From assembly GCF_003336805.1 (NCBI RefSeq), contig NZ_QFWJ01000007.1:62001-126000 (forward strand): a stretch of 64,000 bases of DNA. Reading direction: 5' to 3'. A program made the translations under genes and the position numbers. Positions within the stretch are counted from its first letter, which is position 1; every line of letters begins with the position of its first letter. Positions 11,866 through 40,503 of this stretch are shown in pieces. The notes beneath the pieces are model-generated. The model made no database searches. It worked only from the letters and a program-made list of their open reading frames with translations, and had not been told where the DNA came from. Source of the DNA: Marinospirillum perlucidum. Its GTDB lineage: Bacteria; Pseudomonadota; Gammaproteobacteria; Pseudomonadales; Halomonadaceae.

Positions 11866-14800
11866 TTAGCCTGAAACTGCCATTTGGCGGGGCTTTAAGC
11901 TAGAAAGCTTCAGCCAGCCCGTCGAATCGGGGTAGAGAATTTCCGGCATGACATAAAGGTTAGGAATCTCAACTTCAAAAAATTTAGCAACGGAGCTCCA
12001 ACTATCAAAAGGGGAGGCAAACAAAACTCCATCAAGATACTGAAAGCAGGAGAGCCAAGCTTTTAGATCTGCGGTGGTACGAACGGTGGCTAACTGACTA
12101 GAGGAAGAAAAATTACGCAACTGCTTAAACAAAGTCTCACCCCGTGGGTGACCAATGTAAATGATAAAATCGGGATCAATGCGACTTAAACTCAAAACGC
12201 TAGGATGCAATTCTTGTTTCTCGTCAGCGACAAAAATGGAATTGCTAGCGTACTCAATATATTCATTTTTTTGGAGATCTCTCAACCATGAAAATAAAGG
12301 GTGCTCATTGATGTGGTTGAATTCCAGAGGGTCCACACTCAAGGCAGCGCAAAAAAATCTTGGTCGTTGAGCAACATCGGGATGCCAATTGCCGGAAAAC
12401 TCGGTATCGGGTTCTGTGCCCGATGACGATAAAGACAAGTTGGGATTGAATGCTGAATCCCGTTGCATCACGTTAAGCCAACGACCATAGAGCAGATCTT
12501 CATCCTTCTCCATAAATTGGTGGTGATATGAATAACTGGCACCCCGGACAGCGATCGTAGTCTGAGATGACCACAAATGTAAGTAACCAGCCTGACGCAT
12601 GCGAAGTTGCAAATCAGTCAGCCCTAGTAAACTGGTAAAATCTTCATCTATTCCTTCCATTTCATGCCATAAATCCCTGGCCATTAGCAAAAAAGTAGGA
12701 TTAAGGGCGTTGAAATTCTGATCACACCATGCCCTTGTCATATCCTGGTTTTCCTGCTCAAGATAGAAACCCTTTAAAAAATCACCAACTGGCTGGTTTT
12801 GTAACCCGAAAATCTGACCGGCACTGAAGATTCGTCCTTTAGGTGTCACGAGTCGAGGTCCAACAATTCCAATTTCGGGGCGACTCATAGGATCAAGCAT
12901 TTTTTCTAGCCAACCTGGCTGGACAAAATGGCAATCGTAAGAGACTAAGGCAAAAAACCTAGAGGTTACTGACTCGACCATGCGATTGATAACTTGGCTT
13001 AAATTACTTCCGCACGGTATGGGATGAAAATGCAAGTTAGCTGGAAAGGTTTCACCCGGCCAAACAGAATTTAGCCAAGATCTCACCGTATCCGGATCTC
13101 GAATGAAAATGTGTAGCTGAAAAAAAGAACCTGCATCAATCCTGAAGAGTGATGTTACAGATTCATAGATCTGTTCTTCATCAAGTGCAGGAAAAAGCAT
13201 CAATAAATCGACAGATTCTTGGGATGAAAGTACAGTGTCATTGTAGCGATTGATGAACGTGGAAGAGTAGAGGCCAGGCTGAATTGCAGCATTTGGAAAA
13301 CCGCATCGGTGAAGGTGCTCAAGCCTTAATAAGGCAGAGACTTTTTCATGTTCATCATCTTGCAAAAATGAGTCTAATGCGTCAGAACGATGATTGAGAA
13401 CGAAAGGAAGATGGCCAATAAGTGGGCGGTCCATTTGTTCAGCAAGCTGAAAAGCAAATTGATCCGTTTGCTGAAAAGGAACGTTTGACAACCCTTCCAG
13501 TGCAAGGATTGCATCCCGCCTTAAGGCAGTGCTACGTCCAAGATAGGAGACGGAGCGTAAAAGATCAATATTGAAATCCGGCTTGAAGATGGGACGAATA
13601 CGTTTTAGCTCATCAAGATCCGTATCGGATGAATCGTCCTTGGAGTCTAGATGATCTTCATCACAGTACATCAACATCCAATCCGGATTTTGGTTAGAAT
13701 AATCTGCATAGTGGAACAGAGCGGTAGGGTGCAGAATATCACCAGGCTGAAACAGGATAACCCAGTCAGACTCTACATCATTAACGACTGCAGTCAATTC
13801 GTTAAAAGGATTATCTGAAACTAGCCATTGTAAGTTAAGGTTCGCAAACAGTTCTGAATCTGGGCAGTCAACAGTACTCAACACAGATACACCGAAGTTC
13901 TTATACATCTGGTGATCAAGACTTTCCAGACTTTGCGCCAAAGCAGTGAAAAGGGTTTGGTCGACACAGAAAACCAGATGGAAAGTAGGTTGTTTACGCC
14001 AACCTTGCAAGCGCTCACCCATTAACTGACCGTCTAGTTCTTTGATATGGGTTTTACGTAGCCATTTTTGATAAGCAGATTCAGATTTTTTGAAACGACT
14101 GTCAAGTTCGGAGGATAAAGAGACAAGTGCCCAATATTCTGAGAGTGGATCATCTAGGTTATCGACTGATATACGGTTATTTGCTTGAAGCCATTCTAGG
14201 TGAAGCTCAAAATCTTGTTGCAGTCTTTGTCGAGCCTCTGGTTCGTAAATTATTCTAAGGATTTCTAGGCTTGCACGAATATTAGAATACCCATCTCCAG
14301 AATGACCTACAAGATCAAAAGAATTTTCAATTTGTTGTAGAGTGAAAAGTTGAAGCTCATCAGGGTTTGATAGAAGAAAATCAAGTTTCTCTTCCATTTC
14401 TTCAGCATCAAGCAAGGGTATATGATATTCAGGATAAAGTTTTACTGGGCCTGTGGCTTCAAGAAACACTAGATGTGGCCGACCACACACCAAGGATTCA
14501 ATCGTGACTGTTGAGGCACAAGAAATTGTTATTTCAGAGTTTATTATGTAAGGTTCTGCATAATCAAACACATATCTAAATCTTGAAAAATCTACACCAA
14601 TTTTTTTAGCCAGTCGCAAGACTTCCTCTTTAATAAACTTTTCATTACTTGGTCTGTCTTTGAAAACAAAAGCTACGTCAGGATGCTTATCAAGGGTAGC
14701 TTTGGCAAACAATATCGAACGTTCAAGGCTTCTTCTGTGAATATCATCCTTTAGTTTTAAATGACTCGTGTTTGCTATAGTTGGGAAAAAAGTAACTAAT

Positions 14801-15462
14801 CTTAGTTTAGGATCGAGATTAAGAGCACTAAAAAGAACCTCACGAGCAGGTTCTTCTAGAAGTAAGCGATATTTATCAAGGTGGATAAGTCCTGTCTCTA
14901 TAGGTGTGCAGTCATCTGGATGGGTGGATGTGGCAAGGTAACTTTCCGTATCGTAAGCTGAGGCTGAGAAAAAATATTCACAATCAGTGTGCTGATAAGC
15001 ACTAACTTGTGGACTCATTAGAAACCCGTGATTAACATGAATTCCGGGGACCTTACGAGATTTTGCCCAGCCACCTAAAACACGCTCATGTATAAAAGTT
15101 TCGTTACTTGTAATGAATGCTTTAATCTCATATTTTTCTAAAGCAATATCAAGGGCATCTACTAAAGTGGCAGCAATACCTGCACGGCCTAAAAAAAGTT
15201 GTTCAACTGATTTTCGAAGATGATCAGGATAGCCATCAAGACTGATATCTCCTGGGTTGGGCATTTTATAGTCATGCTGATGGCCATCAGGTAAAAGACT
15301 TTCCAGTGTCACTATCTTATAGTTCTTTTCAACATGCGTTGGAGCGGTCATTAAAGATGTTGGGACCAGAATAGTATAGTCTGGCAAATAGCGTATTACG
15401 TTAAGTGCTGCAGTTGATTCTTTTGAAAGCGTGTTGAGCAATAGAGCCTTTGGCTTAGACAT
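11866..15462 (-). CDS. Multidomain glycosyltransferase, probable flagellin glycosyltransferase
   Basis: A 1198-residue cytoplasmic protein with three recognisable parts. Residues 1 to about 430 look like a GT-B-type polysaccharide transferase, with a nucleotide-binding-like stretch CASTVTIESLVCGRPHLVF near 316-335. Residues about 500-740 resemble a GT-A/GT2 domain with the acidic motif YCDEDHLD near 600 followed by RPIFKPDFNIDLLRS. Residues about 760-1060 form a second GT2-like domain with PGWLEKMLDPMSRPEIGIVG; its expected DxD is replaced by YDCHF, so it may be inactive. The last 130 residues are unassigned. It starts 1 nt after the stop of the preceding small gene. The location beside flagellin and at the end of two sugar pathways suggests that it loads sugar onto flagellin, by analogy with Pseudomonas FgtA-type enzymes. 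Sugar donor and acceptor sites are not known. Confidence 0.85.
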   Translation of the reverse strand: MSKPKALLLNTLSKESTAALNVIRYLPDYTILVPTSLMTAPTHVEKNYKIVTLESLLPDGHQHDYKMPNPGDISLDGYPDHLRKSVEQLFLGRAGIAATLVDALDIALEKYEIKAFITSNETFIHERVLGGWAKSRKVPGIHVNHGFLMSPQVSAYQHTDCEYFFSASAYDTESYLATSTHPDDCTPIETGLIHLDKYRLLLEEPAREVLFSALNLDPKLRLVTFFPTIANTSHLKLKDDIHRRSLERSILFAKATLDKHPDVAFVFKDRPSNEKFIKEEVLRLAKKIGVDFSRFRYVFDYAEPYIINSEITISCASTVTIESLVCGRPHLVFLEATGPVKLYPEYHIPLLDAEEMEEKLDFLLSNPDELQLFTLQQIENSFDLVGHSGDGYSNIRASLEILRIIYEPEARQRLQQDFELHLEWLQANNRISVDNLDDPLSEYWALVSLSSELDSRFKKSESAYQKWLRKTHIKELDGQLMGERLQGWRKQPTFHLVFCVDQTLFTALAQSLESLDHQMYKNFGVSVLSTVDCPDSELFANLNLQWLVSDNPFNELTAVVNDVESDWVILFQPGDILHPTALFHYADYSNQNPDWMLMYCDEDHLDSKDDSSDTDLDELKRIRPIFKPDFNIDLLRSVSYLGRSTALRRDAILALEGLSNVPFQQTDQFAFQLAEQMDRPLIGHLPFVLNHRSDALDSFLQDDEHEKVSALLRLEHLHRCGFPNAAIQPGLYSSTFINRYNDTVLSSQESVDLLMLFPALDEEQIYESVTSLFRIDAGSFFQLHIFIRDPDTVRSWLNSVWPGETFPANLHFHPIPCGSNLSQVINRMVESVTSRFFALVSYDCHFVQPGWLEKMLDPMSRPEIGIVGPRLVTPKGRIFSAGQIFGLQNQPVGDFLKGFYLEQENQDMTRAWCDQNFNALNPTFLLMARDLWHEMEGIDEDFTSLLGLTDLQLRMRQAGYLHLWSSQTTIAVRGASYSYHHQFMEKDEDLLYGRWLNVMQRDSAFNPNLSLSSSGTEPDTEFSGNWHPDVAQRPRFFCAALSVDPLEFNHINEHPLFSWLRDLQKNEYIEYASNSIFVADEKQELHPSVLSLSRIDPDFIIYIGHPRGETLFKQLRNFSSSSQLATVRTTADLKAWLSCFQYLDGVLFASPFDSWSSVAKFFEVEIPNLYVMPEILYPDSTGWLKLSSLKPRQMAVSG

Positions 15463-15825: not shown

Positions 15826-17214
15826 TCAGGTTTGTCTGAAGCCACGAAAATTCGTGTTTTTATTTCCATAAAGATCATCTAACTGATTCTGAACACTTAT
15901 CTTTTTCTTCTCGAAATATCGTTCAAGTAATTGTTTGTTGGCCCAGTGTAGTGCCTTGTAGTACTCATCATCTGATAATTCGGTAAAATTTACAGCGAGA
16001 AGATCAGAGTTTACGTGTTTTACTTCATAAAAATCTTCAACACCACCAAGTAGACCTTTTTCTATAGCATGGTAATAGAGGGGGCTTCCCGGATAAGGAG
16101 TTACAGGACGAATGGTTCTCATCTGTGAGCCATCATCTTATTTAAGCAAGAAGTCTACACCCTTTTTAAGTGTTTCAAAATTTTCTCCAATATTACCAAA
16201 AATAATATTGTATCCGGGACTTATACCTGCATCGAGTGTTGCCTCGATACCCTCAACAATTTGCTTGGTTGTAAGCCCTTTTTTCATATTTCGAAGAATT
16301 TGATTGTCAAAAGCTTCGATTCCATAATTAATGAAAACACAACCAGACATCTTCATTAATTTAAGAAGGCCAGGCTTGGCATAGTTTAATCTTCCTTGAC
16401 ATTCCCACTTAATTTTCACATTTGCCTTTATTAATGCATTGCAAATCTCTTCAGTTCTTTGTACCGATGACATCAGCAGTTCATCAGAAAAGGCAATATA
16501 GGTTATTCCGTAATTTTCTTGAAGAAAACGTATTTCTTCAATTATTGACTCAGGTGAACGTGCGCGAAAACCTTTATCCATCCGATAACAAAAATTACAC
16601 TTAAAAGGGCAACCGCGACCAGAAAGAACAGGCATAATAAAATCTGTACTGGAAGCGTGAGGCATTCGCAATGCTCTATAATGCTCAATATTAAATAGGT
16701 CATACGCAGGCATCGGTATTTTTTCGATATCCTGTATCAGCTCACGTGGCCTAGTCATGATAGTTTTATCATTTTCACGGTATGCAATTCCCGCTACATC
16801 AGAATAATTCTTGATGCCCGAAAGAACATCACACAATTCTGCCGCCGTATTTTCACCTTCACCAATTACAATAACATCAGCACCTGTTTTACGCATAAAA
16901 TAATCTGGTTCTGGTGCGGGTCCGTGAGCGCCAAGAATATATGCAGGTCTTTTTTTAGAGTTGTTGATTGCCTCTGATATCTTTAGAAGCTTATAGTATT
17001 GGTAATACCCACCAATAACACTAACGCATACTGCATCAAATTCATTATTATCCAGGTATTCTGTTAAATGTTGACCTGGATAATGGTGTACATCCTGATG
17101 ATATACCTCTACGTCTGCTCCTTTTTCACGAAAGACTGAAGCTATATAAGCAAGCCCTTGAGGAAATCAATGGATGTAGGATTCATTATCGTAGGCAACT
17201 AGAAGTATTCGCAT
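15826..17214 (-). pseudogene. B12-binding radical SAM protein, two in-frame stops
   Basis: Read through from ATG 17214 (AAGGA upstream) to 15826, this is a coherent 462-codon B12-binding radical SAM enzyme, a family often found in polysaccharide loci where it carries out methylations or rearrangements. It starts MRILLVAYDNESYIH, then hits TGA at codon 16 (17167-17169), where relatives would typically have Trp before FPQGLAYIAS. The B12 fold continues (VCVSVIGGYYQYYKLL, ILGAHGP). The radical SAM motif GRGCPFKCNFCYRM (CxxxCxxC) and IEAFDNQILRNMKKG follow. A second stop, TAA at 16138-16140, interrupts the frame before DDGSQMRTIRPVTPYPGSPL. There is no frameshift, only two nonsense codons. It is therefore probably a recently inactivated gene; open fragments are 16138-16896 and 15826-16122. 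The region is AT-rich. Confidence 0.8.
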
Positions 17215-17350: not shown

Positions 17351-18085
17351 TTATTTGCTTGAATCTGCCTGTGTGCTTAATTTGAAGTACCTCTTCATCA
17401 AAAATTCTGCTATTTCATAGTCATATAATGTATCAATATCTATAGATCTTTCAGTAGGCATCACTAAAGCGTGAGACTTGACCATAAAAAAACCTTGATT
17501 TTTCAGCAGTAAGTTGGATTTCGCAAGATAAAATGCTCCATTAAGGCGATAGTGCTGTGGTAGATCCTGGCTACGCTTGTTCAATATATCTGGGGACAAG
17601 AATCTATCCATACTCACGCTATCATCAAGCGTATTACACCAAAGGGGAGAGTGCTCTACTGGACAAACACTAATCACACTATTGGCTTTTTTATCGCGAA
17701 ATAGATTAAAGCCTTTCTGAATATCTTGCTGGTTTCTAAGTGGTGAGGTGGGCTGAAGCAAAAGAGTTAGTTCTGGGTGAATTCCTTTATGATTTAACTC
17801 TTCGAGTGTGTGTTTAAGTACAGCAAAAGTCGTCGCTGTATCACTTGAAAGTTCCGCCGGCCTTTCTAGGCAATAGCAATCCTTTTGGTTTGAAGCTAGG
17901 TTTAGAATTTGTGGATCATCACTGGTGACTGCTACCAAGTCAATTTCCGGTGACTCTAATGCTAGGTCAAGAGTCCACTGCACCAAGGGTTTGCCTGCCA
18001 GCAACTTGGTATTCTTGCCTGGTAAACGCTTGCTACCAGCTCTTGCTGGAATTACAGCCAGGACTTTATGCGTGTACTCAATCAT
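17351..18085 (-). CDS. legF: CMP-nonulosonate synthetase, probable CMP-legionaminate synthase
   Basis: It activates a nonulosonic acid with CTP to the CMP-sugar used by glycosyltransferases. The 244-residue protein has the NeuA/LegF/PseF signature: VIPARAGSKRLPGKN at the N-terminus (CTP binding), LLLQPTSPLRNQQDI, and RSIDIDTLYDYEIAE near the C-terminus (metal-binding DIDT). I set the start at ATG 18085, which gives the typical N-terminus and overlaps the previous stop in ATGATTGA; the ORF could extend 18 codons upstream. It is assigned to legionaminic rather than pseudaminic acid because a separate PseF sits in the pse block at 36325-37014 and this one follows the Leg genes. Specificity is inferred from context. 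Confidence 0.82.
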   Translation of the reverse strand: MIEYTHKVLAVIPARAGSKRLPGKNTKLLAGKPLVQWTLDLALESPEIDLVAVTSDDPQILNLASNQKDCYCLERPAELSSDTATTFAVLKHTLEELNHKGIHPELTLLLQPTSPLRNQQDIQKGFNLFRDKKANSVISVCPVEHSPLWCNTLDDSVSMDRFLSPDILNKRSQDLPQHYRLNGAFYLAKSNLLLKNQGFFMVKSHALVMPTERSIDIDTLYDYEIAEFLMKRYFKLSTQADSSK

Positions 18086-19133
18086 TGAATAACTCGCTGG
18101 CATCAGTTTGTGCTCGATTGAAATCATCCATCCTGCCAATATCGAGCCAGTAATCAGTTAGAGTATAAAGGTTGACTACCTTGCCATTATTAATTTCCTG
18201 CTGCAGTAGTTCCGGCATATCTAGAGGGTGGTTGGCTGGCACTTGTTTAACCAATTTAGGTGATAGCAGATAGATGCCAGCATTAACATTAAAGGTTTGA
18301 GTGGGCTTCTCCTTAATGGCAAGAGCCTGATGATCTCTGGATTCAATGACGCCATAGGGTATCTGATGTTCATACTCCCTGACACAAAGGGTTGCGCTGC
18401 CCCCATGTTCCTCATGAAAACCAAGCAAAGAAAGATAGTTCAAGGTGGTCAAAAGGTCGCCATTCATCATGAATAAGGGTTGATCAATCTCATCTTTAGG
18501 AAGAAGGCCCAAGGCGCCAGCAGTTCCCAGTGGTCTATCTTCATGAATATAGGTGATACTAACGCCCCAGCGGTTGCCATCGCCAAAATGCTCACGAATT
18601 TTTTCAGGCATATAGTGGGTGGAGATATAAAAGCGATGAAAACCGGAACTGACAAAGCTTTCCAGAATCAGCTCAAGAATCGGCTTATCACCTACTTTGA
18701 GTAACGGCTTTGGACAAGTTTTGGTCAAGGGGTGCAGGCGTTTTCCAAAACCACCAGCCATTAAAAAGACGGGGTTATCCTGCCTGGGTTTTTGAAGTAA
18801 TCCATGAAGTGTCTCAAGGCCAGTTACTTGTTGATCAGTATCTACAACTGGCAATTGTAAGAGTTGCTGCTGTTCCATAAAGGACAGTAAACGAGCTTTA
18901 CTCCAGTCAGCAGTAGCGACTTTGGGCTGTTTGTTCATTATTTGAACGACGGGTGTGGCTAAATCCAGGCGCTTTAGTAGTGCTCTGCGTACATCTCCAT
19001 CTGTTACTGTACCTATAAGCTTTTTGTCTTCGTCGGTTACAAGAAGAATCTGCTGTGCTGATAAATCCAACTTCTCAATGGCTCCTTCCAGAGAAATCGT
19101 TGGTTGAACAAGAGTGTCTTGCCAATTTTTCAT
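18078..19133 (-). CDS. CBS-domain sugar-1-phosphate nucleotidyltransferase (PtmE-like)
   Basis: Residues 1 to about 115 form two CBS motifs (VTDEDKKLIGTVTDGDVRRA). The rest is a GlmU/RmlA-type nucleotidyltransferase with the signature LMAGGFGKRLHPLTKTCPKP and a conserved MMNGDLLTTL. This architecture is that of PtmE of Campylobacter, the GlcN-1-phosphate guanylyltransferase that opens the GDP-linked legionaminic acid route. If the analogy holds, the sugar-nucleotide in this pathway is GDP rather than UDP based. The start at 19133 removes an implausible 25-residue extension; it lies 7 nt after the upstream stop. It overlaps legF by 8 nt. The partner enzymes PtmA and PtmF are not in the window. 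Confidence 0.83.
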   Translation of the reverse strand: MKNWQDTLVQPTISLEGAIEKLDLSAQQILLVTDEDKKLIGTVTDGDVRRALLKRLDLATPVVQIMNKQPKVATADWSKARLLSFMEQQQLLQLPVVDTDQQVTGLETLHGLLQKPRQDNPVFLMAGGFGKRLHPLTKTCPKPLLKVGDKPILELILESFVSSGFHRFYISTHYMPEKIREHFGDGNRWGVSITYIHEDRPLGTAGALGLLPKDEIDQPLFMMNGDLLTTLNYLSLLGFHEEHGGSATLCVREYEHQIPYGVIESRDHQALAIKEKPTQTFNVNAGIYLLSPKLVKQVPANHPLDMPELLQQEINNGKVVNLYTLTDYWLDIGRMDDFNRAQTDASELFND

Positions 19134-19140
19134 CTTTAAT

Positions 19141-19791
19141 TCACTGTGAATGCTTGGTGGCTTGCTGGGGTTTAGCCGCCAAATATTTGTGGCCTTCTGG
19201 TAAGTCATAAAGCAGTGTAGAGCCAGCTCCCAGAACGGCTCCTTGTCCTAGATGACAGCCTTGGACTACACAACTTGCGGGCCCTAAATGACAATAATTC
19301 CCAACATTAACGTTGCCAGACAAGACAACGGCTGGTGCCAAGTGGCAATGTTTACCTACCTTGCAATCATGGTCCAGTTGAGTGCCTGTATTGATCAGCG
19401 TGTTTTCATCAATTAGAACATCCGTTTGCAGAATACACCCTGCCATGACTTGTACGCCTTCGGCCAGTTCAACCCCATCTGCAATGATGGCTGTAGGATG
19501 CACCAGAGTGATAAAAGTATAGCCCGATTTTTTGAACTGTTTGAAAAGGGTTTGGCGAAGGTTTTTCCCTGGCAAACTGCCTAAACCATTAGCTAGCAGG
19601 ACTTTATTGGGTGGATACTTGTACACATCTGAGTCTTCACCCAGCACGGGTAATCCTCGCCATTCTTTTATTCCTTTGTGCTTCAGCTTGGGGTCAATGA
19701 CACCTGACAGAGGAGATTTAATTAACTGCAAGAGATTCAGAACCACTTTGGCATGTCCGCCTGCACCCAGCAGAATGACTGGCAGACTCAT
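19141..19791 (-). CDS. legH: NeuD/PglD-type sugar acetyltransferase (probable LegH)
   Basis: The 216-residue protein has a small Rossmann-like N-terminal domain (VILLGAGGHAKVV) and a left-handed beta-helix of hexapeptide repeats (about 95-205). In between lies the conserved LVHPTAIIADGVEL, and it contains the catalytic-type His in THDH-like TQLDHDCKVG. PglD/LegH enzymes acetylate the 4-amino group of the UDP- or GDP-4-amino-sugar with acetyl-CoA. The gene overlaps legI by ATGA. Because the cluster has a LegC aminotransferase and no other Leg-type acetyltransferase, assignment to the LegH step is reasonable, though O-acetylation of the final sugar (NeuD function) cannot be excluded. Confidence 0.75.
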   Translation of the reverse strand: MSLPVILLGAGGHAKVVLNLLQLIKSPLSGVIDPKLKHKGIKEWRGLPVLGEDSDVYKYPPNKVLLANGLGSLPGKNLRQTLFKQFKKSGYTFITLVHPTAIIADGVELAEGVQVMAGCILQTDVLIDENTLINTGTQLDHDCKVGKHCHLAPAVVLSGNVNVGNYCHLGPASCVVQGCHLGQGAVLGAGSTLLYDLPEGHKYLAAKPQQATKHSQ

Positions 19792-20855: not shown

Positions 20856-21533
20856 TTAACGTATTTCCTTGAGTATCATAAAAGCTTCAGCAGCTTGGCA
20901 ATTTGCTTGCGCGCCTCGTAGAGTTGCAAGTGCCCTAAGGCATTCCTCACTGCGAGGGAAAGGAAATTTTCCCATCTCTCCATCAAACAGGGACATTATC
21001 TCAATTTTCTTGTCCAGATAGCCGCTAATGTCTTCATAAAGATTGGGGCGAAACCCCAAATCATCTGGTCGTAAGCCGAAATCTGTTTCAGACAAAGTCT
21101 CATACGCGTATATCGCTTTCACGAACGGAGATCGAAAAGTTTTAGTGGCTGCTACTGCTGCATCAAATACAGCGGCATGATCGCTATGGGCATCATTTCT
21201 GTAAGGAATATAAACCCTCTCTGGTTTTATATTTTTAATGATATTACCCACTGCTCCGATTAGCTCACCTTTCCCAAGGGTATCCAAGGCAGCAGAGGGC
21301 AATGAACAGTGATGAACGTCATTAAACCCATAAGCCTCTTTAACTGCATCAATTTCTCTGGCACGGGCGTGCACTCGTTCCTGAGGGAAACCAGAAACGC
21401 CGTCGATGGTTGTCACAATAAGCCAGTGAACCACTGTACCCTGCGCCTTTAACTTCAAGATAGTGCCGCCACAGCCCAGGGTTTCATCGTCTGGGTGGGG
21501 GGCGATGACAAGACACCGATTTGTATTCTGCAT
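20856..21533 (-). CDS. PIG-L (LmbE) family N-deacetylase
   Basis: Zn-dependent deacetylases of this family remove acetyl groups from GlcNAc-containing substrates. Visible motifs are VIAPHPDDETLGCGG (metal-binding HPDD) and IPYRNDAHSDHAAVFDAA (HxDH). ATG 21533 is used; a TTG codon just before it (21536) has slightly better spacing from AAGGA. It sits between legG and legI, so its substrate is probably an acetamido sugar of the Leg route or the finished nonulosonate. Removing one acetyl would free an amine for another acyl group, which would fit the nearby ATP-grasp gene. This is inference. Confidence 0.85.
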   Translation of the reverse strand: MQNTNRCLVIAPHPDDETLGCGGTILKLKAQGTVVHWLIVTTIDGVSGFPQERVHARAREIDAVKEAYGFNDVHHCSLPSAALDTLGKGELIGAVGNIIKNIKPERVYIPYRNDAHSDHAAVFDAAVAATKTFRSPFVKAIYAYETLSETDFGLRPDDLGFRPNLYEDISGYLDKKIEIMSLFDGEMGKFPFPRSEECLRALATLRGAQANCQAAEAFMILKEIR

Positions 21534-21596
21534 CAATTGCTTATGTCCTTAGCAGCTCAAAGCCGAGCCGAAACTAAATGAAATTTATGGAAATCT

Positions 21597-31184: not shown

Positions 31185-32590
31185 CTTTTTTCTGCCTCTT
31201 CAATTAACAACTGGTAGTTAGGCTTGCCAGTGGATAAACAGGGTAACTCTTGATGAATCAAGATTCTAAAGAGTGTTGGATGAATACTGAGCTCCCGGTG
31301 AAGGTAAGTATGCATTGCTTCCTGTTGCTCATCAGCTGCTAGTACAACCACTAGCTGATCATCCCTACCCGTTACAGCTAACAAATCAGAGAATATTTTT
31401 TTGAGTCGGAATTCCAACTGATCGAGTTGCCAGCGTTTGCCCTGTATTTTTAGCAGCCTGCTACTACGACCTGTTATTCGTACCCAGCCTTCTACTGTCC
31501 ATTCTGCCAAATCACCCGTTGCCAACTCATTCAGAAATGTATTGCTTTGAAGGTCTGCCGGCTTCTGAGCATAACCCAGCATGACATTGGGTCCTAGATA
31601 GCAGAGCTCACCTGTTTCTTCGACCGTATTAATCACGGATCTTGTTTCTAAATCACGAATTATCAAGCGTCCCCCCGGTATGGCTTTACCAATGCAGCCA
31701 ACTGCTTGCGGTAAGGCTTCTGGGGGAAGGTAGGCAATACGAGGGCTGGCTTCGGTCTGGCCGTACATAACATAAAAGCTCCAGCCTTTATCCTGGCACA
31801 GTTCCTCAAATCTAAGGATATCGTCATCGGGAAGCCGGCCTCCAGCCTGCGTCAGATAGCGTATTGAAGGCAAGTCCATTGATTCGAGGCGAAGGCGTTT
31901 GAGCATCTGATAATGGAAAGGAACCCCTGAGAGGCTGGTTACCTCATGAGCCTTAACTTCATTCCAGAAGTTTTTACTCATTAGGGGCTCTTCAGTGAGT
32001 ACGATGGCTGCCCCAGTCTGTAGTTGACTGTTTACAACTGAGAGACCATAACAGTAGTGCAATGGTAAGCTAGTAATGGCCACATCAGTTGATTGAATTT
32101 GTAAATATTCTGCTATTGATTCTGCGTTGCTGTAGATATTCTGATAACTCAACATGACGGATTTTGGAGAGCCACTGCTACCAGAAGTACTGAGAAGTAA
32201 CGCCAGATCATCACGACAGCTTGTTGACGCTACTTTCATTTTTTTGGGTGATTGATCTGCTCTCAGCAGCCAGCCAGCTCCGAGCTGCTCTATCAATGAT
32301 AGCTGGGTCTCATCAGGTATACCCGGATCCAATACCAACAGGGGAATTCCTGCTTGCAGAGCTGCCAAATAGCTGATAATGGCATCCGGGTGGGGTGTTA
32401 TATGTATAGCCGCAAGGTGATTTGAAACTAGCCCTAGTTGCTCCCAGGTACTTTTTCGATTTTGTATTCTATCATCAAGTTGTGCATAGCTGATTTTTTC
32501 GTCCCCAAAAATCAAAGCAATCTTTTCACCATGCTGAAAAATCTTATCGGCAAACCCTGCTGTATAATTTGGCTGGGGACTTGGTCTCAC
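31181..32590 (-). CDS. AMP-dependent acyl/amino-acid ligase (ANL superfamily)
   Basis: The 469-residue adenylating enzyme has core motifs A3 LLLSTSGSSGSPKSVMLSYQN (trimmed here), A5 YVMYGQTEASPRIAYLPP, and a hinge region TGDLAEWTVEGWVRITGRSS followed by a small C-terminal domain. It would activate a carboxylic acid as acyl-AMP and load it on the adjacent ACP or on CoA. The start is GTG (32590), overlapping the SDR stop as GTGA. It is somewhat short for the family (usually 500 or more residues), with a compact C-terminal domain. The substrate is not evident; the neighbouring SDR suggests a 3-hydroxyacyl or similar short chain. Confidence 0.83.
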   Translation of the reverse strand: MRPSPQPNYTAGFADKIFQHGEKIALIFGDEKISYAQLDDRIQNRKSTWEQLGLVSNHLAAIHITPHPDAIISYLAALQAGIPLLVLDPGIPDETQLSLIEQLGAGWLLRADQSPKKMKVASTSCRDDLALLLSTSGSSGSPKSVMLSYQNIYSNAESIAEYLQIQSTDVAITSLPLHYCYGLSVVNSQLQTGAAIVLTEEPLMSKNFWNEVKAHEVTSLSGVPFHYQMLKRLRLESMDLPSIRYLTQAGGRLPDDDILRFEELCQDKGWSFYVMYGQTEASPRIAYLPPEALPQAVGCIGKAIPGGRLIIRDLETRSVINTVEETGELCYLGPNVMLGYAQKPADLQSNTFLNELATGDLAEWTVEGWVRITGRSSRLLKIQGKRWQLDQLEFRLKKIFSDLLAVTGRDDQLVVVLAADEQQEAMHTYLHRELSIHPTLFRILIHQELPCLSTGKPNYQLLIEEAEKR

Positions 32591-33327
32591 AATGAAAAGC
32601 CTCCATCAACTCCTAAAATTTGACCAGTCATATAGCTTGCTGCTGGTGAACACAAGAAACCGATAATTTGTGCGACATCTTCGGGTTGACCAATTCGTTT
32701 CAAAGCAATTTTTTCGATTAATTCAGCTTTTTTCTCTTCTGAATAATGCTCAGTCAAGTTGGTTTCGATTAAACCTGGAGCAACTGCATTGACGCGAATA
32801 CCGACTGGTCCAAGTTCTTTCGCAAGTGACAGAGTGAGTCCAGTCAGAGAAGCTTTTACACTTGAATAAGCGCTCTGACCTGCTGAACCAGCTGATGCCA
32901 CTTTTGATGAAAGTAGTACAAGATTACCAAATCTCTGTCGAGTCATCAGGCGGCTGGCAAGTTGACATAGTTGGAAAGTGGCCTGCAAGTGAATAGTGTA
33001 AAGGTGCTGTAATTCTGACAGGCTTGTCATCATTAATGGCTTGTCCAGCATAAATCCAGCACAATGAACCAAGTGGTGTAAGCGCTTTTCTTTTTGCAAT
33101 TCTTGGAATAGCACTTTCAGCGACTGACTGTCAGTTAGATCCAAAGTTTTTGTCGTGACAGATGAACCGTGTTGGCGACATTCTTCAGCTTGATCCGCAA
33201 GTAAATCAGGATTTCTGGCAACCAACCAAAGATCGTATCCCTGTTTTGCAAGTTGTTTTGCAGTTGCGGCGCCAATTCCACGACTCGCACCTGTAATCAG
33301 AGCTAGCGGCTTAGTGGCAGTGGACAT
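32587..33327 (-). CDS. FabG-like short-chain dehydrogenase/reductase
   Basis: The 246-residue classical SDR has ALITGASRGIGAATAKQLAK (NADP site), VHCAGFMLDKPLM, catalytic Ser in LVLLSSKVASAG, YSSVK as the YxxxK pair, and GIRVNAVAPGLIETNLTEHY. It resembles 3-oxoacyl-ACP reductases and probably acts on an acyl chain carried by the adjacent ACP. I chose ATG 33327, two bases after the ACP stop, because SDRs normally begin 6-10 residues before the GxxxGxG motif; an earlier ATG (33348) would overlap the ACP gene by 20 nt. Confidence 0.85.
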   Translation of the reverse strand: MSTATKPLALITGASRGIGAATAKQLAKQGYDLWLVARNPDLLADQAEECRQHGSSVTTKTLDLTDSQSLKVLFQELQKEKRLHHLVHCAGFMLDKPLMMTSLSELQHLYTIHLQATFQLCQLASRLMTRQRFGNLVLLSSKVASAGSAGQSAYSSVKASLTGLTLSLAKELGPVGIRVNAVAPGLIETNLTEHYSEEKKAELIEKIALKRIGQPEDVAQIIGFLCSPAASYMTGQILGVDGGFSL

Positions 33328-33328
33328 A

Positions 33329-33571
33329 TTAGTCAAATCGGAGGTCATATTTAGCTAGAATTCGTTTACTTTCAGCAACGGAACTCATATCAATAATGTC
33401 GTCAGTATCTAAAAGAATATCAAATGTTGCTTCCAGCTCTGCAACCAGAATCATATGTGCAGTAGAATCCCATTCTTTGATGCTATTGTATGCTAACTCA
33501 TCAGTTATTCTATTAATATCAATGGCGAGGGCAGTAGCAAAGGTTTGCTGTAGTTTCTCAGTATTTGTCAC
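33329..33571 (-). CDS. Acyl carrier protein
   Basis: An 80-residue acidic four-helix ACP. The phosphopantetheine attachment serine is in SIKEWDSTAHMILVAELE (DST rather than the DSL of FabA-type AcpP), and the recognition helix is ATFDILLDTDDIIDM. This makes it a dedicated, non-housekeeping ACP. The start is GTG (33571) with AGGA seven bases upstream. It lies between pseH and the SDR, directly linking the pseudaminic acid genes with the acyl-processing cassette. Confidence 0.88.
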   Translation of the reverse strand: MTNTEKLQQTFATALAIDINRITDELAYNSIKEWDSTAHMILVAELEATFDILLDTDDIIDMSSVAESKRILAKYDLRFD

Positions 33572-33591: not shown

Positions 33592-34158
33592 TTAACGCAA
33601 AGAAAAATTATGAAGTTTTTCAAAAGATTTTTGATGACTTTCTGGACTGAGCTGCATGGAAACCAGATTATTTGAGTTGCTGTTTTCAAAGTCAGATTTT
33701 ATATATCCCAAAGTTTCATTGAACCGGATAGCAGCACTATTATCAATCTTTACATTGGCAATTAGTTTTTTTATTTTTAATTCAGTGAAAGCATATTCAT
33801 GCATTAAAAGAGCAGGCAGAAAAGCGACAAAAGTTCCTCGGTACTTTTCTGATGCTATGTAATATCCACTTTCAGCAGTTTTTGCGTTATAGAGTTTATT
33901 GCCTGAATTTTTTAGGTTTCCTGCCCCGATTGGCTGTTCTTTGTAATATAGAACAAACTGTGCCTGCTTTTCATCATTCTTTATTTTATTGAACCAGCTA
34001 ATTTGTTCTTCTGGGCTGATTTCATGTTGATTTAGCATGAACTGTGAAATCTGCGGGCTATTACGCCAGCGCCTTACCATCTCTAAGTCCTCAATGCTGA
34101 GTGGTGAAATACGAACGTTCCCTAGAGATTTTGATTTCTGGTGCCACATGCTATTCAT
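33592..34158 (-). CDS. pseH: UDP-4-amino-sugar N-acetyltransferase PseH (GNAT)
   Basis: PseH acetylates the 4-amino group of UDP-4-amino-4,6-dideoxy-L-AltNAc with acetyl-CoA. The protein is a GNAT-fold enzyme with LVRRWRNSP-like MVRRWRNSPQISQFMLNQHE near the N-terminus. SGYYIASEKYRG and ALLMHEYAFTELKIKKL, then NSAAIRFNETLGY, are typical of PseH/RimJ-type enzymes. The start is uncertain: ATG 34158 lies one base after the pseI stop, while a TTG at 34167 lies closer to GGGAG. Given the adjacent ACP, it is open whether this enzyme could use acyl-ACP. Confidence 0.85.
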   Translation of the reverse strand: MNSMWHQKSKSLGNVRISPLSIEDLEMVRRWRNSPQISQFMLNQHEISPEEQISWFNKIKNDEKQAQFVLYYKEQPIGAGNLKNSGNKLYNAKTAESGYYIASEKYRGTFVAFLPALLMHEYAFTELKIKKLIANVKIDNSAAIRFNETLGYIKSDFENSNSNNLVSMQLSPESHQKSFEKLHNFSLR

Positions 34159-34159
34159 T

Positions 34160-35233
34160 TTATTCAAAGTGCTCCCAGCTTAAAGGCGTGCCTTTATTGA
34201 TCTTTTTCTTAATATATTTGCCTAGAAACTGCTTTAGATATTTGGGTGGGAGCCCTGACCCGGGCCGCACAGAACGAAGATTATTTTCTGTAAGTTGGTC
34301 ACCTGGTTCTAGGTCTTCTGCAATATAAAGAGAGCGACGATGTTTTCGGGAAGCAATTTCCCGTTCAGTGGGTCCGTAGTAAACTTTCCCTAATGCATCC
34401 TTGGCACGACGGCACTCTTCCACCAGTTGGCGAAGCTCATTTGGTTCCATCGAGAAATCAGCATCAACGCCCCCTTCACTACGGTCTAAAACAAAATGCT
34501 TTTCGATAACCGTTGCTCCCAAAGCAGCACCTGCGACAGCAACACCTATTCCTGTGGTGTGATCAGATAAGCCGACTTGGCAACCAAATAATTGCGCAAG
34601 ATGAGGTAATGTATTTAAATTCGCATCAACTGGGCGGGCAGGATAGTTACTAGTGCACTTAAGAAGAATCAGTTCTTCACAGCCATTTTCGCGCAGTACC
34701 TCAACAGACTCAGCTAGTTCACTCAGTGTTGCCATCCCCGTAGACATGATGACTGGCTTACCCGTTTTAGCAACCGCAGCTAGCAAAGCATGGTCCGTAT
34801 TTTCAAAGGAAGCTATTTTATAACAGGGGGAATTTAGCTCTTCCAAATAGTCTAGAGCGGTGGAGTCAAATGGAGTACTGAATGCCAGCATACCAAGCTG
34901 CTGCGCACGCTCAAAAAGAGGCTGATGCCATTCCCACGGAGTCATCGCTTTTTGATAGAGCTGATGCAGAGAATAGCCTTTCCACAAGTTGTTTGGATCG
35001 TCTATAAAAAAATCACCCTCATGAACATCAAGGGTCATGGTATTAGCTGTGTAGGTCTGCAACTTAATAGCATCCGCCCCTGCGTGGGCCGCTGCATCAA
35101 CCATTTGTAAAGCTTTATCCAGAGACTGGTCATGATTGCCGGAAAGCTCGGCAATAATAAAAGGCATGTTGTCTGAGCCAATGACTGTATTGCCCAGTTG
35201 AATCGTATTAGGTTTATCAGGACTTTGGTTCAT
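34160..35233 (-). CDS. pseI: Pseudaminic acid synthase PseI
   Basis: It condenses 6-deoxy-AltdiNAc with phosphoenolpyruvate to make pseudaminic acid. The 357-residue protein has the PseI-type start PFIIAELSGNHDQSLDKAL (ELSxNH, distinct from the EAGVNH of LegI). Further motifs are ADAIKLQTYTANTMTLD, PCYKIASFENTDHALL, PVIMSTGMATLSELAE and VIEKHFVLDRSEGGVDADFS. A C-terminal SAF domain ends the protein. It overlaps pseG by 4 nt and is followed by pseH. Presence of both PseI and LegI types indicates that two different nonulosonic acids are made. Confidence 0.94.
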   Translation of the reverse strand: MNQSPDKPNTIQLGNTVIGSDNMPFIIAELSGNHDQSLDKALQMVDAAAHAGADAIKLQTYTANTMTLDVHEGDFFIDDPNNLWKGYSLHQLYQKAMTPWEWHQPLFERAQQLGMLAFSTPFDSTALDYLEELNSPCYKIASFENTDHALLAAVAKTGKPVIMSTGMATLSELAESVEVLRENGCEELILLKCTSNYPARPVDANLNTLPHLAQLFGCQVGLSDHTTGIGVAVAGAALGATVIEKHFVLDRSEGGVDADFSMEPNELRQLVEECRRAKDALGKVYYGPTEREIASRKHRRSLYIAEDLEPGDQLTENNLRSVRPGSGLPPKYLKQFLGKYIKKKINKGTPLSWEHFE

Positions 35234-36324
35234 GCGAGATATTTCTCTAATTGAGTCTTTAGGTGTTGGACAACTGCGTGGACTCCTCCACTTCGAGGAA
35301 CAACCTGGCTTGCATTATGGCTTATCTGCCCTAACAAAAGAGGGTTGTTCAAGGTTCTACTCAAAGCCAGGGCAAGTTGTGAAGTGGTTATTTGATCAGC
35401 ATCACCAAGCCAGATACAAGCACCTTGTTCAGCGAGATATTCAGTTGTTGGGCGCTGGTTTTCTGCAACAGTTACGATTAACCCAGGTAAACCCAGAATA
35501 CAGCGCTCCCAATGAGTAGTACCGCCACCTCCCAGCATAAGTTTGGCTTTACTCATTAATTCCGCCATACGTTGAGTCTGAATATGTAATTTTGCATTGG
35601 GGAGTTTGGATATTGCCCCTACCAGTGCTGGTTTATCTGGATTGTTCTGTCCGATAACGATATCTGCGCTGGGAGAAATCTGACTATTGTGGTGTAGATC
35701 TTGTAAGGCTTTTACGGTTTTTAAAGTGAGATGCCAGGGATCGCTGCCACCAAAAAAAACTAGCAGGCGTTCTGGGCTAAGTTCTCTTTGTGTTTGGTAG
35801 AACTCTTCGCGTAATAGAGCATATTCAGGGCCAAGCAAGCATTTGCATCCCGGGTTGACGAGGCCTTGGTATCGTCTTAGAAAATTTGGTAGTAAGTTTT
35901 GATCCAGAAGCGTTTCACAATCATGGCTGCGATTTGCCAGGTCATCAATCACCATGCGATGCCGGAAAAAAGGCTTCAGCTTTTGTGTGAAAGTTCGGCC
36001 TAGTCCGTAGTGGTCAACTACCAGCAGGTCGGCTGGAATTTCATGCTGATTAAGAAGGCTTATCGTATCCGATGCATCCTGCTCTTCAGTGCAACCTAGC
36101 CACTCAGCGTATCCTTTCATTTCAGAAGTGTCTTTTAACTCTGGAAGTGGTAGAACTTTGAATCCTTGTTGCTGAATCACTTCAATCAGATTGCCGAGGT
36201 GTAGCCGACAGATAAAGCTTATGCTAGCGCCTTGTTGATGTAGGGCTCTTGCCAGAGTCAGACAGCGCATGACATGGCCAGAGCCAATCAGGGCTGAGGC
36301 ATCGGTGCGAATATATACTTTCAT
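35230..36324 (-). CDS. pseG: UDP-6-deoxy-AltdiNAc hydrolase PseG
   Basis: PseG removes UDP from UDP-2,4-diacetamido-2,4,6-trideoxy-L-altropyranose before the PseI step. The 364-residue GT-B-fold protein starts VYIRTDASALIGSGHVMRCL, the characteristic glycine-rich N-terminus with the catalytic His, and has LLVVDHYGLG, LLVFFGGSDPWHLT and MLGGGGTTHWERCILGLPGL. It starts immediately after pseF (no gap) and overlaps pseI. Confidence 0.92.
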   Translation of the reverse strand: MKVYIRTDASALIGSGHVMRCLTLARALHQQGASISFICRLHLGNLIEVIQQQGFKVLPLPELKDTSEMKGYAEWLGCTEEQDASDTISLLNQHEIPADLLVVDHYGLGRTFTQKLKPFFRHRMVIDDLANRSHDCETLLDQNLLPNFLRRYQGLVNPGCKCLLGPEYALLREEFYQTQRELSPERLLVFFGGSDPWHLTLKTVKALQDLHHNSQISPSADIVIGQNNPDKPALVGAISKLPNAKLHIQTQRMAELMSKAKLMLGGGGTTHWERCILGLPGLIVTVAENQRPTTEYLAEQGACIWLGDADQITTSQLALALSRTLNNPLLLGQISHNASQVVPRSGGVHAVVQHLKTQLEKYLA

Positions 36325-38021
<1,697 letters not shown>

Positions 38022-38040: not shown

Positions 38041-39198
38041 TCAAACTGCACTCAGTGACTCTTCAAGTACTTGGATAACTTGTTCCACTTCATCCTCCTG
38101 TAAACCAGGATGAAGTGGAAGACTGATTGCTTGCTGGTAGTAGTGTTCAGCTTCAGGAAAGTCACCATATTTGAAGCCTAGTTGCTGATACCAAGGCTGA
38201 GTATGCACGGGAATATAGTGTAGATTCACGCCTATGTTTGCAGCTCGAAGATTTTCAAAAACTTGCCGGTGACTAATATGGTGCCTTTCGGTTTCAAGCC
38301 GAATGATGTAAAGGTGCCAGGCTGATTCTTTGCTTGGAAAGGGTAGCTTTACGGGAAAGTCTTCCAGCCTTTGGTTATAGGTTTCAGCCAGTTGTCGGCG
38401 CTTAGTAATATAGTGGTTAAGGCGATCTAGCTGCGAAACACCTAAAGCAGCTTGCAGTTCGGTCATTCTATAGTTGAACCCTAGAGCTATTTGCTGATAG
38501 TACCAAGGGCCATCAGGTGGGTGAGACATTTGCTCACTTTCGCGGGTAATACCATGGCTACGAAGTAGCTGCATTTTTTTTGCCAAGGCCGTATTTCGTG
38601 TAGTGGCCAGCCCACCTTCAGCAGTGGTAATAATTTTAACCGGATGGAAGCTGAAGACGGTGATATTACTATATTGGCAATTGCCTACCGGTTGACCAAG
38701 ATAGGTGGCGCCAATTGCATGGGAAGCATCTTCAATGATTTTGAAGCCGTAACGCTCAGATAGAGCATGTATTTTTTGCATGTCACAGGGCTGGCCAGCC
38801 AAGTGCACTGCAACAACAATCTTGGGTAACGTGCCTTTTCTTTCCGCCTGGATCAGTTTTTCTTCCAGTTTTTTGGGGCAAAGGTTGTAGCTTTTGGGGT
38901 CAATATCGACAAAGTCAACTTTAGCCCCACAATACAAACCACAATTGGCTGAAGCTACAAAGGTTATCGGGCTAGTCCAAAGCCAGTCGCCAGCTTTAAG
39001 ATCAAGGGCTAGGCATGCCAAGTGCAAGGCAGATGTGGCGCTATTGACTGCCACAGCGTGGGGTACTTTGCAGATGCTGGCTACCCGTTGTTCAAATAAG
39101 GGTACTTGCGGACCCTGTGTTAAAAAGTCTGATTTCAGCACCCCCAGCACTGCATCTAGATCTGCTGGTCGAATGTCTTGTTTACCGTAAGGTATCAT
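38041..39198 (-). CDS. pseC: UDP-4-amino-sugar aminotransferase PseC
   Basis: A PLP enzyme that transaminates the PseB product to UDP-4-amino-4,6-dideoxy-L-AltNAc. The 385-residue protein starts MIPYGKQDIRPADLDAVL, typical of PseC, with VNSATSALHLACLAL, IIEDASHAIGATYLG and the Schiff-base lysine in VFSFHPVKIITTAEGG. It is the first gene after a sigma28 promoter and probably the first cistron of the long sugar operon; the leader is about 65 nt. Confidence 0.94.
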   Translation of the reverse strand: MIPYGKQDIRPADLDAVLGVLKSDFLTQGPQVPLFEQRVASICKVPHAVAVNSATSALHLACLALDLKAGDWLWTSPITFVASANCGLYCGAKVDFVDIDPKSYNLCPKKLEEKLIQAERKGTLPKIVVAVHLAGQPCDMQKIHALSERYGFKIIEDASHAIGATYLGQPVGNCQYSNITVFSFHPVKIITTAEGGLATTRNTALAKKMQLLRSHGITRESEQMSHPPDGPWYYQQIALGFNYRMTELQAALGVSQLDRLNHYITKRRQLAETYNQRLEDFPVKLPFPSKESAWHLYIIRLETERHHISHRQVFENLRAANIGVNLHYIPVHTQPWYQQLGFKYGDFPEAEHYYQQAISLPLHPGLQEDEVEQVIQVLEESLSAV

Positions 39199-39270: not shown

Positions 39271-39297
39271 TTATCGACAAGTGGTCACTTTTCTTTA
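39271..39297 (-). promoter_or_regulatory. Sigma28 (FliA) promoter driving the pse operon
   Basis: The minus strand reads TAAA (39297-39294), a 15-bp spacer and GTCGATAA (39278-39271): perfect -35, exact spacing, 7 of 8 at the -10. The TAAA overlaps the fliB stop codon. With the flagellin B and flaG promoters it shares the TAAAG start. It would place nonulosonate synthesis in the same late flagellar class as flagellin. Confidence 0.72.
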
Positions 39298-40503
39298 GTT
39301 AAGGTGCAAGGCTCGCGCAAAAGCCACGTTGGATTTTAGGTCTTTCCCAGCTAATTCCAGCATTAGCTTATCCATAAGCGAACTGTGTGTCACTCCACGA
39401 CCAAAGCGATAAGTTAGGCGAATCAGATCCTGTTTTTCAAATGACTTTTGTTGCAGAGCAATGCCGGAAGATAAAGTGCGTAACAGTAAATAGCGCACAA
39501 AAATGCTGGCCCAGCCATCTTGGATATTTTGACGCTGGATAGGAAACATGTCTCGAATGAGCCAATTCACTACAAGGTTTTCCAGGGCATAACTTTGCTT
39601 TTTATAAAAGGGCTTGAGGTGCTTTTTCCACGCCTCTTTGAGCTTGTTCAGTTGCTCTTCTCCAGCAGGACGCTTTCCAGTTATTTGTAGTCCATCCAGA
39701 GCTTTCTTAAGCTCTTCCTTGAAGGCATGCTGATTAGGCTTTTCTTGGACAAGAACATTCAGGATAACAAGCCCTAAGGCTCCATCGTTAGTTTTTTGAA
39801 GTTCCCTGGCTTGTTGCTGAAAATAGCCCTGATTGGTTAGTTCAAAATAGAGGTTACAGAGGTCTTGCATACTGGTTTCATTGTCATCTCCTTCTAGCAG
39901 AGTTTGAGCTCTTTGTACTAGTAGTCCTGCAATGAATAACCGCATCTCAAGGCTTATATTGCGGTGTCGTAATAAGGTTAGCAGTGCTTGAAGCAGTTGA
40001 TAGCGGTCTGCATAGTTTTCTTGTTCTTCAATAATTGATGCATGGGGCTTTTTTGATAGCTCTAACGGGGCAAAGCTGAGTTCCATGGCCTCAGGATCAT
40101 CAATTAGTAATTTGGCAACCTCAGGACAGGATTCAGTGAGGGTGACCGTAATATCATTGCCAAGCATTTTGTAGTGCCGCGGATAGTTATCGCAGGTGGC
40201 ACAGAGGGCGTCTTCACCAAATCTCTTTTGTAGGGAGCAAAGTCCATTTTCTTCTTGTAGCGAGCATTTGCCAGTTTGAGGGTTTAATTTAATATAAGCA
40301 GGGCTAGACTCTTTGGTCTTCAAATCATAATTATCGATTAGCTTATCCTGCATCACTGCAATTAAGGCAGGGTTCGTGCGGTAGCCTCGGAGCGTTTCTG
40401 GATCGACACCTACGTTCCAGCTGTGGCAGCAATTGTCAGGGCACTTGCTGCCAGTGCATTGAAATTTTCTGACATATTTGGGTGCTAGAGCATCGTGTGA
40501 CAT
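39295..40503 (-). CDS. fliB: Flagellin lysine-N-methylase FliB
   Basis: FliB methylates the epsilon-amino groups of surface lysines on flagellin. The 402-residue protein carries a Cys-rich N-terminus, FQCTGSKCPDNCCHSWNVGV (CxxxxCxxxCC), further cysteines in GKCSLQEENGLCSLQKRFG and LCATCDNYPRHYK, then ESCPEVAKLLI. This matches the FliB family, which coordinates a metal cluster. The C-terminal half is helical. In this window the plausible substrates are the lysines in the centre of flagellin B; flagellin A has almost none there. It lies upstream of the pse operon, on the same strand. Confidence 0.88.
   Translation of the reverse strand: MSHDALAPKYVRKFQCTGSKCPDNCCHSWNVGVDPETLRGYRTNPALIAVMQDKLIDNYDLKTKESSPAYIKLNPQTGKCSLQEENGLCSLQKRFGEDALCATCDNYPRHYKMLGNDITVTLTESCPEVAKLLIDDPEAMELSFAPLELSKKPHASIIEEQENYADRYQLLQALLTLLRHRNISLEMRLFIAGLLVQRAQTLLEGDDNETSMQDLCNLYFELTNQGYFQQQARELQKTNDGALGLVILNVLVQEKPNQHAFKEELKKALDGLQITGKRPAGEEQLNKLKEAWKKHLKPFYKKQSYALENLVVNWLIRDMFPIQRQNIQDGWASIFVRYLLLRTLSSGIALQQKSFEKQDLIRLTYRFGRGVTHSSLMDKLMLELAGKDLKSNVAFARALHLN

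Follow-up and report, generated by a model that had tools for sequence, protein, structure and literature searches.

The stretch analysed here, hereafter the window, is a 64,000-nucleotide segment of the Marinospirillum perlucidum contig NZ_QFWJ01000007.1. It carries a flagellin-modification island with genes for two nonulosonic acids, pseudaminic acid (Pse) and legionaminic acid (Leg), all genes of interest lying on the (-) strand, from fliB (40503) down to a flagellin gene (10889). In the Leg half of the island, the legG gene of the type found in a congener has been replaced, in the same slot, by a foreign block comprising two methyltransferase genes, an ATP-grasp ligase gene, a HAD hydrolase gene, a variant legG and a PIG-L deacetylase gene. 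This exchange of legG for an ATP-grasp-bearing block at the same place is the new part of the finding, and the swapped tailoring block, which had gone unnoticed in a preliminary description of the locus, is its real peculiarity. Judging from gene content, we consider it fairly probable (about 0.6) that the island serves flagellin modification and makes two tailored nonulosonic acids: a Pse with an acyl group other than acetyl, and a Leg in which a methylated amino acid would take the place of an acetyl group.

Exchange of the legG region

In the congener G001, the genes legF, ptmE, neuD, legI, legG, legC and legB occupy the same flagellar neighbourhood. DNA similarity between the window and G001 (approximately 75%) covers positions 17483-20842 and 25799-27889 and is absent between them, that is, from the PIG-L gene to the TylF-type methyltransferase gene. 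Marinobacter persicus DNA matches positions 20098-22785, 23363-24301 and 25051-26897 at 77 to 83%, the matches extending into legI and legC; this organism has the ATP-grasp gene and the variant legG, but neither the HAD gene nor the second methyltransferase gene. In a tree of 20 LegI proteins, the LegI of the window (G000) is sister to that of G001 on a 100/99 branch, and the proteins from loci with ATP-grasp are scattered, with five changes. As LegI groups the window with G001, only the middle of the Leg locus was exchanged.

The ATP-grasp gene was found in none of 90 other genomes of the family (0/90), and in one of 397 other genomes of the phylum sample. Ten loci found through this gene in named genomes all carried Leg genes (M. 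persicus, seven Bacillota, one Spirochaetota and one Myxococcota, several being metagenome drafts), and a flagellin match was present in six of the ten, within the stretch examined. A 53.5% relative was also encountered on an Ensifer adhaerens plasmid (NZ_CP101518.1, 1484454-1485344), with no annotated gene under the match. Separately, more distant pairs of ATP-grasp and HAD genes were seen by tblastn in Bacillota (L044-L052, L055; ATP-grasp 29-33%, HAD 25-31%). In nine of these ten stretches a pse-, leg- or NeuB-like match lay within the 3-4 kb examined, and the two genes may thus form a tailoring unit of general use.

The variant LegG is closely linked with the ATP-grasp. In a tree of 36 LegG proteins, 15 of which had a neighbouring ATP-grasp, 14 of these 15 fell on one side of a 100/99 branch, and the motif GDRE[ED] was present in 14/15 of the ATP-grasp-linked proteins compared to 0/21 of the others. 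The window has the same arrangement, a GDRE[ED] LegG beside an ATP-grasp and pigL, designated here the ATP-grasp-linked Leg module. The 14 variants form two groups, ten resembling that of the window and four placed on a long branch. Variant and ordinary LegG both occur within one Bacillota family (104 genomes), a distribution that taxonomy alone would hardly give. The sample was not a random one, as the ATP-grasp itself led to most of the rows that contain it. Among 16 further ATP-grasp matches, two were repeat genomes (L040, L041), three contributed a LegG to the tree, some of them partial (L042, L043, L050), and 11, whose ATP-grasps are 31-36% alike, were left uncounted because no LegG lay within the 3-4 kb examined. 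Of 14 further LegG places, L056 and L057 were left out as repeats of L008 and L010; about 4 kb was covered at each of the other 12, where an ATP-grasp farther off would be missed. Two simpler markers were rejected: GGD in LegG, which L058 and L061 carry without an ATP-grasp, and PIG-L alone as a sign of an altered sugar, since it adjoins ordinary legG too (G005, L067). A literature search for solved NeuC-type structures yielded no useful entry.

On the simplest reading, the sugar would already bear the substituent when it reaches LegG, which must therefore accommodate it, and LegI would tolerate it. A second congener, G005, has in the same slot a PIG-L gene and a formyltransferase gene (PF00551, PF02911), placed between legI and an ordinary legG (19118-20679 in joined L020/L021 coordinates). 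This fits a scheme in which an amine is deacetylated and then re-acylated differently, and it suggests that the product there is an N-formyl legionaminic acid.

Proposed sugars and alternatives

The scheme that we favour is as follows. CMP-Pse would be made by PseBCHGIF, with the acyl carrier protein (ACP), the FabG-like reductase, the AMP-ligase, LuxE and LuxC supplying or reshaping an acyl group, which would be placed on Pse instead of acetyl by PseH or by a neighbour; the Maf-like protein may then move the tailored Pse to flagellin. In the Leg half, a diacetamido nucleotide sugar would be made by PtmE, LegB, LegC and NeuD. PIG-L would take off one acetyl, probably that at C2 (which becomes C5 of Leg), the freed amine would be joined to an amino acid by the ATP-grasp enzyme, and the methyltransferases would methylate the attached amino acid. 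The altered sugar would be hydrolysed and epimerised by the variant LegG, and LegI and LegF would complete CMP-Leg, giving something like Leg5GluNMe7Ac, which the large glycosyltransferase beside the flagellin is likely to transfer. FliB would methylate flagellin lysines.

PIG-L enzymes take acetyl off glucosamine-type amines, as do solved relatives of the one encoded here, and the second-best fold match of the predicted ATP-grasp structure is PylC, an amide-forming amino-acid ligase. No report tying an ATP-grasp or PIG-L to legionaminic acid was found in the parts of the open-licence literature consulted, where two papers use ATP-grasp in other glycans. An ATP-grasp gene is required for the peptidylamido sugar of Clostridioides difficile type B flagellin (PMC5207246), and the ATP-grasp protein SfmE is part of a flagellin modification operon in Shewanella oneidensis (PMC3765264). 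By analogy, these cases may be related to the swapped block.

Several observations weigh against this scheme. No function is stated for 2pn1, the best fold match of the ATP-grasp model, and PurK and biotin carboxylases, which are not amide ligases, make up many of the other matches. The TylF-type enzyme is nearest to a sugar O-methyltransferase, not to a known N-methyltransferase, and the HAD protein and the second methyltransferase are not essential, since M. persicus does without them. PIG-L genes also stand next to ordinary legG, at G005 and L067. The LegG proteins of L014, L015, L039 and L042 form the separate long branch and do not have the HV motif, and the LegG of L050, linked to a distant ATP-grasp (33%), falls among the ordinary ones. 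LegI did not change with the block, although it too must accept the altered sugar. Finally, the need for an aldehyde-forming LuxC has no explanation.

It is conceivable, though rather unlikely, that the locus makes ordinary Pse5Ac7Ac and Leg5Ac7Ac, as in Campylobacter jejuni, the extra enzymes decorating the finished sugar or the later glycan and leaving the N-acetyl of Leg untouched. The core enzymes of both pathways are indeed present, and both sugars are known to occur on one flagellin (PMC13317340), but it would then be unexplained why legG, which acts early, was exchanged together with pigL and the ATP-grasp gene while legI, neuD and ptmE stayed congener-like. That the island is decaying or partly silent, so that only one sugar is made, seems improbable: the frame of a radical SAM gene contains two stops, but every other gene in the run has an open frame and aligns with its family along most of its length. 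Delivery of Leg to lipopolysaccharide or capsule, flagellin receiving Pse only, has a parallel in the Aeromonas caviae island, which serves both O-antigen and flagellin (PMC7874193). We regard it as very improbable in M. perlucidum, given that in three congeners Leg genes adjoin flagellins at the corresponding place, that flagellins are near 6/10 of the ATP-grasp loci, and that sigma-28-like sites stand before flaG, flagellin 2 and pseC.

If two tailored sugars are indeed made, the block names the enzymes that place an amino acid on legionaminic acid, which are unassigned in the literature examined, and a one-residue marker in LegG would predict such sugars from genomes. Flagellar surface sugars would then be altered by swapping one cassette within an existing pathway. 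We would give even odds to a broader proposal: a mobile kit (pigL, variant legG, ATP-grasp, with or without HAD, methyltransferases) may cross phyla and replace the resident legG, yielding an aminoacylated, methylated flagellar Leg, with the change of LegG from GDR-F/Y to GDR-E as the specificity switch and with other kits, such as that of G005, accepted in the same slot.

Composition of the island

The features are collected in Table 1. In the direction of transcription, the order is fliB, pseC, pseB, pseF, pseG, pseI, pseH, ACP, FabG-like reductase, AMP-ligase, LuxE, LuxC and Maf-like; then legB, legC, TylF-type methyltransferase, second methyltransferase, ATP-grasp, HAD, legG and PIG-L; then legI, neuD, ptmE, legF, a broken radical SAM gene, a 106-residue open reading frame (ORF), the 1198-residue glycosyltransferase and flagellin.

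Table 1. Features of the flagellin-modification island, in order of decreasing position
Feature	Position	Strand	Evidence
fliB, flagellin lysine-N-methylase	39295..40503	-	NF038110 234 bits, cut-off 85
sigma-28-like promoter before pseC, overlapping fliB 3' end	39271..39297	-	1 mismatch
pseC	38041..39198	-	TIGR03588 560 bits, cut-off 423.5
pseB	37011..38015	-	TIGR03589 566 bits, cut-off 407.75
pseF	36325..37014	-	TIGR03584 331 bits, cut-off 205.7
pseG	35230..36324	-	TIGR03590 291 bits, cut-off 153.55
pseI	34160..35233	-	TIGR03586 495 bits, cut-off 340.25
pseH-like GNAT N-acyltransferase	33592..34167	-	TIGR03585 91.5 bits, slightly below cut-off 93.1
acyl carrier protein, 80 aa	33329..33571	-	PF00550 E 0.0038, 17.9 bits, below cut-off 20.8; WDST motif by eye; position as in Aeromonas Group II
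FabG-like reductase	32587..33348	-	TIGR01830 223 bits, below cut-off 297.75; PF13561
AMP-forming acyl ligase	31181..32590	-	PF00501
LuxE-like acyl-protein synthetase	30102..31184	-	PF04443 167 bits; C-terminal GCS aligned with solved LuxE 7xc6_E
LuxC-like acyl-CoA reductase	28911..30086	-	PF05893 91 bits
Maf/PseD-like flagellin glycosyltransferase core, 332 aa	27926..28924	-	PF01973 64 bits, cut-off 34.6
legB	26927..27916	-	TIGR04180 513 bits, cut-off 475; 88% to congener G001
legC, probable start nearer 26934	25789..27009	-	TIGR04181 542 bits, cut-off 420
TylF-type methyltransferase, swapped block	25053..25757	-	PF05711; CalS11 sugar O-methyltransferase E 2e-36
class I SAM methyltransferase, swapped block	24328..25029	-	PF08241
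ATP-grasp ligase, swapped block	23385..24299	-	PF15632/PF02655; model mean pLDDT 82.8; nearest folds 2pn1, PylC
HAD hydrolase, swapped block	22748..23413	-	PF00702
variant legG, swapped block	21597..22751	-	NeuC-type TIGR03568 387 bits, cut-off 236; GDREE signature; tree
PIG-L N-deacetylase, swapped block	20856..21536	-	PF02585 92 bits; solved relatives include diacetylchitobiose deacetylases, GlcNAc-malate deacetylase
legI	19788..20852	-	NeuB-type, TIGR03569 470 bits, cut-off 399.65; sister to congener G001
NeuD-like N-acetyltransferase (LegH role)	19141..19791	-	TIGR03570 192 bits, cut-off 160.8
ptmE-like CBS + nucleotidyltransferase	18078..19208	-	PF00483 and PF00571
legF-like CMP transferase	17351..18139	-	PF02348; only PseF model otherwise, below cut-off (159/206)
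broken B12-type radical SAM gene, between legF and glycosyltransferase	15826..17214	-	one frame; in-frame TGA near start, TAA before last part
1198-residue multi-domain glycosyltransferase beside flagellin	11866..15462	-	weak GT2 match, below cut-off
flagellin 2	10889..11773	-	PF00669/PF00700
flagellin 1	7070..7975	-	PF00669 match at C22:69520-69927

What the preliminary description observed was borne out. It had claimed complete sets for both sugars: PseB, C, F, G and I exceed the NCBIfam equivalog cut-offs (5/6) and PseH is marginal, just under its own, while LegB, LegC, LegG, LegI and NeuD pass, PtmE is recognised by Pfam and LegF stays below the PseF cut-off. The PtmE-like gene is the sole pointer to a possible GDP-linked route for Leg. 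The head-to-tail run with tiny gaps that it described consists of 24 genes, from pseC to legF, with intergenic gaps of -29 to +60 bp if shorter starts are assumed for legC, ptmE and legF; fliB adjoins pseC directly upstream, and the flagellins and the 1198-residue glycosyltransferase were found downstream, with the position and strand given there. Our analysis added the ACP gene, the Maf-like protein, LuxE, LuxC, PIG-L, the ATP-grasp, the HAD, the broken radical SAM gene and the positions of two flagellin genes in the window.

Both NeuB-family genes of the genome lie in the island, 14 kb apart, on one strand and next to flagellin, so that a Pse synthase and a Leg synthase share one flagellar locus, which is what we call a dual-nonulosonate flagellar island. 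The GC content of individual genes in the run is 34 to 50%, compared to 54% in the last 19 kb of the window. Sites resembling a sigma-28 promoter with at most one mismatch number three in the window, compared to 0.23 expected from shuffles, and none of 100 shuffles reached three; they precede flaG, flagellin 2 and pseC, all on the coding strand. With two mismatches, 12 sites were found against 4.8 expected, several of them within genes. The consensus used is similar to one printed in PMC3765264. ORFs resembling FlaG, FliD and FliS were recognised by eye among the neighbours of the island, and FliB, going by its family, is presumably a methylase of flagellin lysines. A flagellar role and a single transcription unit for the run are probable, supported by the close spacing of its genes, the neighbouring flagellins and the three sigma-28-like sites. 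Upstream of fliB, at 40643-41701, lies a relative of dTDP-glucose dehydratases that scores under the NCBIfam cut-offs.

The two candidate glycosyltransferases differ in their surroundings. The Maf-like protein is the only PF01973 match of the genome; it consists of an MptE-like core of the Maf flagellin glycosyltransferases only, scores 32 bits with the PseD model NF050051 (far under its cut-off of 670), and had no match in the congener Leg loci examined. Relatives of the 1198-residue protein (30-35%) adjoin both Leg genes and flagellin in G001, G005, G006 and G028, that of G001 being 31% alike and in the same place. Relatives at the corresponding place in congeners include some with weak GT1/GT2 matches, and neither the sequence of the protein nor a six-sequence profile found a solved relative at E 0.01. 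With the Maf-like protein beside the Pse/Lux part and the relatives of the large protein beside Leg genes, we assign the former to Pse and the latter to Leg as probable transferases. From both sugars being made in one unit with many tailoring enzymes, the preliminary description had expected a complex and possibly mixed glycan. Two sugars attached by two enzymes are at least as likely, because the large glycosyltransferase of G001 adjoins Leg genes in 40 kb without any match to Pse, Lux, Maf-like or ATP-grasp genes. In the flagellar Leg locus of G001 (L019 3565-8045), Pfam also detects a PEP mutase/cytidylyltransferase fusion, a TPP enzyme, an iron alcohol dehydrogenase and a sulfotransferase-like gene, a set suggestive of a phosphonate pathway serving a flagellar sugar. 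ORFs of similar size and order are seen in G005 (L021, approximately 5549-10098), the sulfotransferase-like one having been compared by eye.

A search of 80 other family genomes at E 1e-25 gave no relative of the radical SAM gene. Selenocysteine or another recoding of its TGA was rejected, as the same frame also has a TAA; on the grounds of this TAA and the missing family relative, a radical SAM step in a live pathway was discarded as well.

LuxE relatives were found in 22 of 398 Pseudomonadota genomes (own included), with a NeuB within 8 kb in at least 8 of the 22. The cysteine of the LuxE GCS motif is what we take to be the carrier of the acyl group; for LuxC, no solved relative was found at E 0.001. 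In one Pseudomonadota draft genome (G181), an ATP-grasp, a LuxE relative and a NeuB lie on separate contigs (C297, C17 and C217), possibly a second case of both tailoring kits.

Distribution and comparison with known systems

NeuB was present in 50/117 genomes (own included). Two strong NeuB matches within 30 kb also occurred in G061, G109 and G016; one copy in G016 has stops, and the stretch examined in G061 matches Pse genes, not Leg genes. The congener G005 has a Leg locus and, on a separate contig of 11 kb, Pse genes together with a part of fliB. In the Pseudomonadota sample, 148/398 genomes had a NeuB at E 1e-40, and at least seven (own included) had two within 30 kb, counted as NeuB only.

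The preliminary description had regarded a dual-nonulosonate unit as unusual. Its flagellar role and single probable transcription unit stand, but a dual Pse/Leg flagellar pathway is already known, since as many as seven Pse- and Leg-based moieties are found on the flagellins of C. jejuni, and an island of Clostridium butyricum CDC_51208 is predicted to make both sugars (PMC13317340). As here, C. jejuni and C. coli have both pathways in one locus by flagellin genes, and both sugars are tailored. The M. perlucidum island differs by its Maf-like and 1198-residue glycosyltransferases, its LuxC/LuxE cassette and its PIG-L/ATP-grasp block, and no acetamidino synthase was among the family matches listed for its proteins. 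The CDC_51208 island (Category 4) resembles ours in that Leg and Pse are predicted from one flagellar island with methyltransferases, and fliB occurs in other C. butyricum islands; for CDC_51208, the main text of the paper makes no mention of ATP-grasp, deacetylase or carbamoyl (PMC13317340).

For the Pse half, the closest counterpart is the polar flagellin glycosylation island of Aeromonas Group II (98 strains), where pseH is followed by ACP, 3-oxoacyl-ACP reductase, AMP synthetase, luxE and luxC, in the same order as here, and for which the authors suggested a lipid-like component (PMC7874193). There, the 327-residue GT2 Fgi-1 lies next to luxC, in place of the Maf/MptE-like gene of the window, and the word "legionaminic" is absent from that paper. 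Aeromonas AH-3 has a Pse derivative of 376 Da (PMC7874193). Replacing acetyl by dihydroxybutyryl on Pse gives a computed 376.15, an arithmetical fit only.

For the Leg half, the counterpart is a flagellar module of Bacillota (Paenibacillus, Bacillus methanolicus and Tumebacillus; L008, L010, L012, L016), with flagellins nearby and the same order as here: legB, legC, methyltransferase(s), ATP-grasp, HAD, variant legG, pigL, legI, ptmE and legF. Unlike in the window, a second full-length NeuB was missing from the region in all 8 genomes searched, and the four stretches gave no Pse or Lux gene match. The product that the swapped block would explain is known from the flagellin of C. botulinum Langeland, which carries Leg5GluNMe7Ac, with an N-methyl-glutamyl group on N5 (PMC5207245), and for which the help of a PtmH-like enzyme has been suggested (PMC13317340). 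The likeness is one of product, predicted for M. perlucidum from its genes: a Leg of this kind may be what its flagellin carries.

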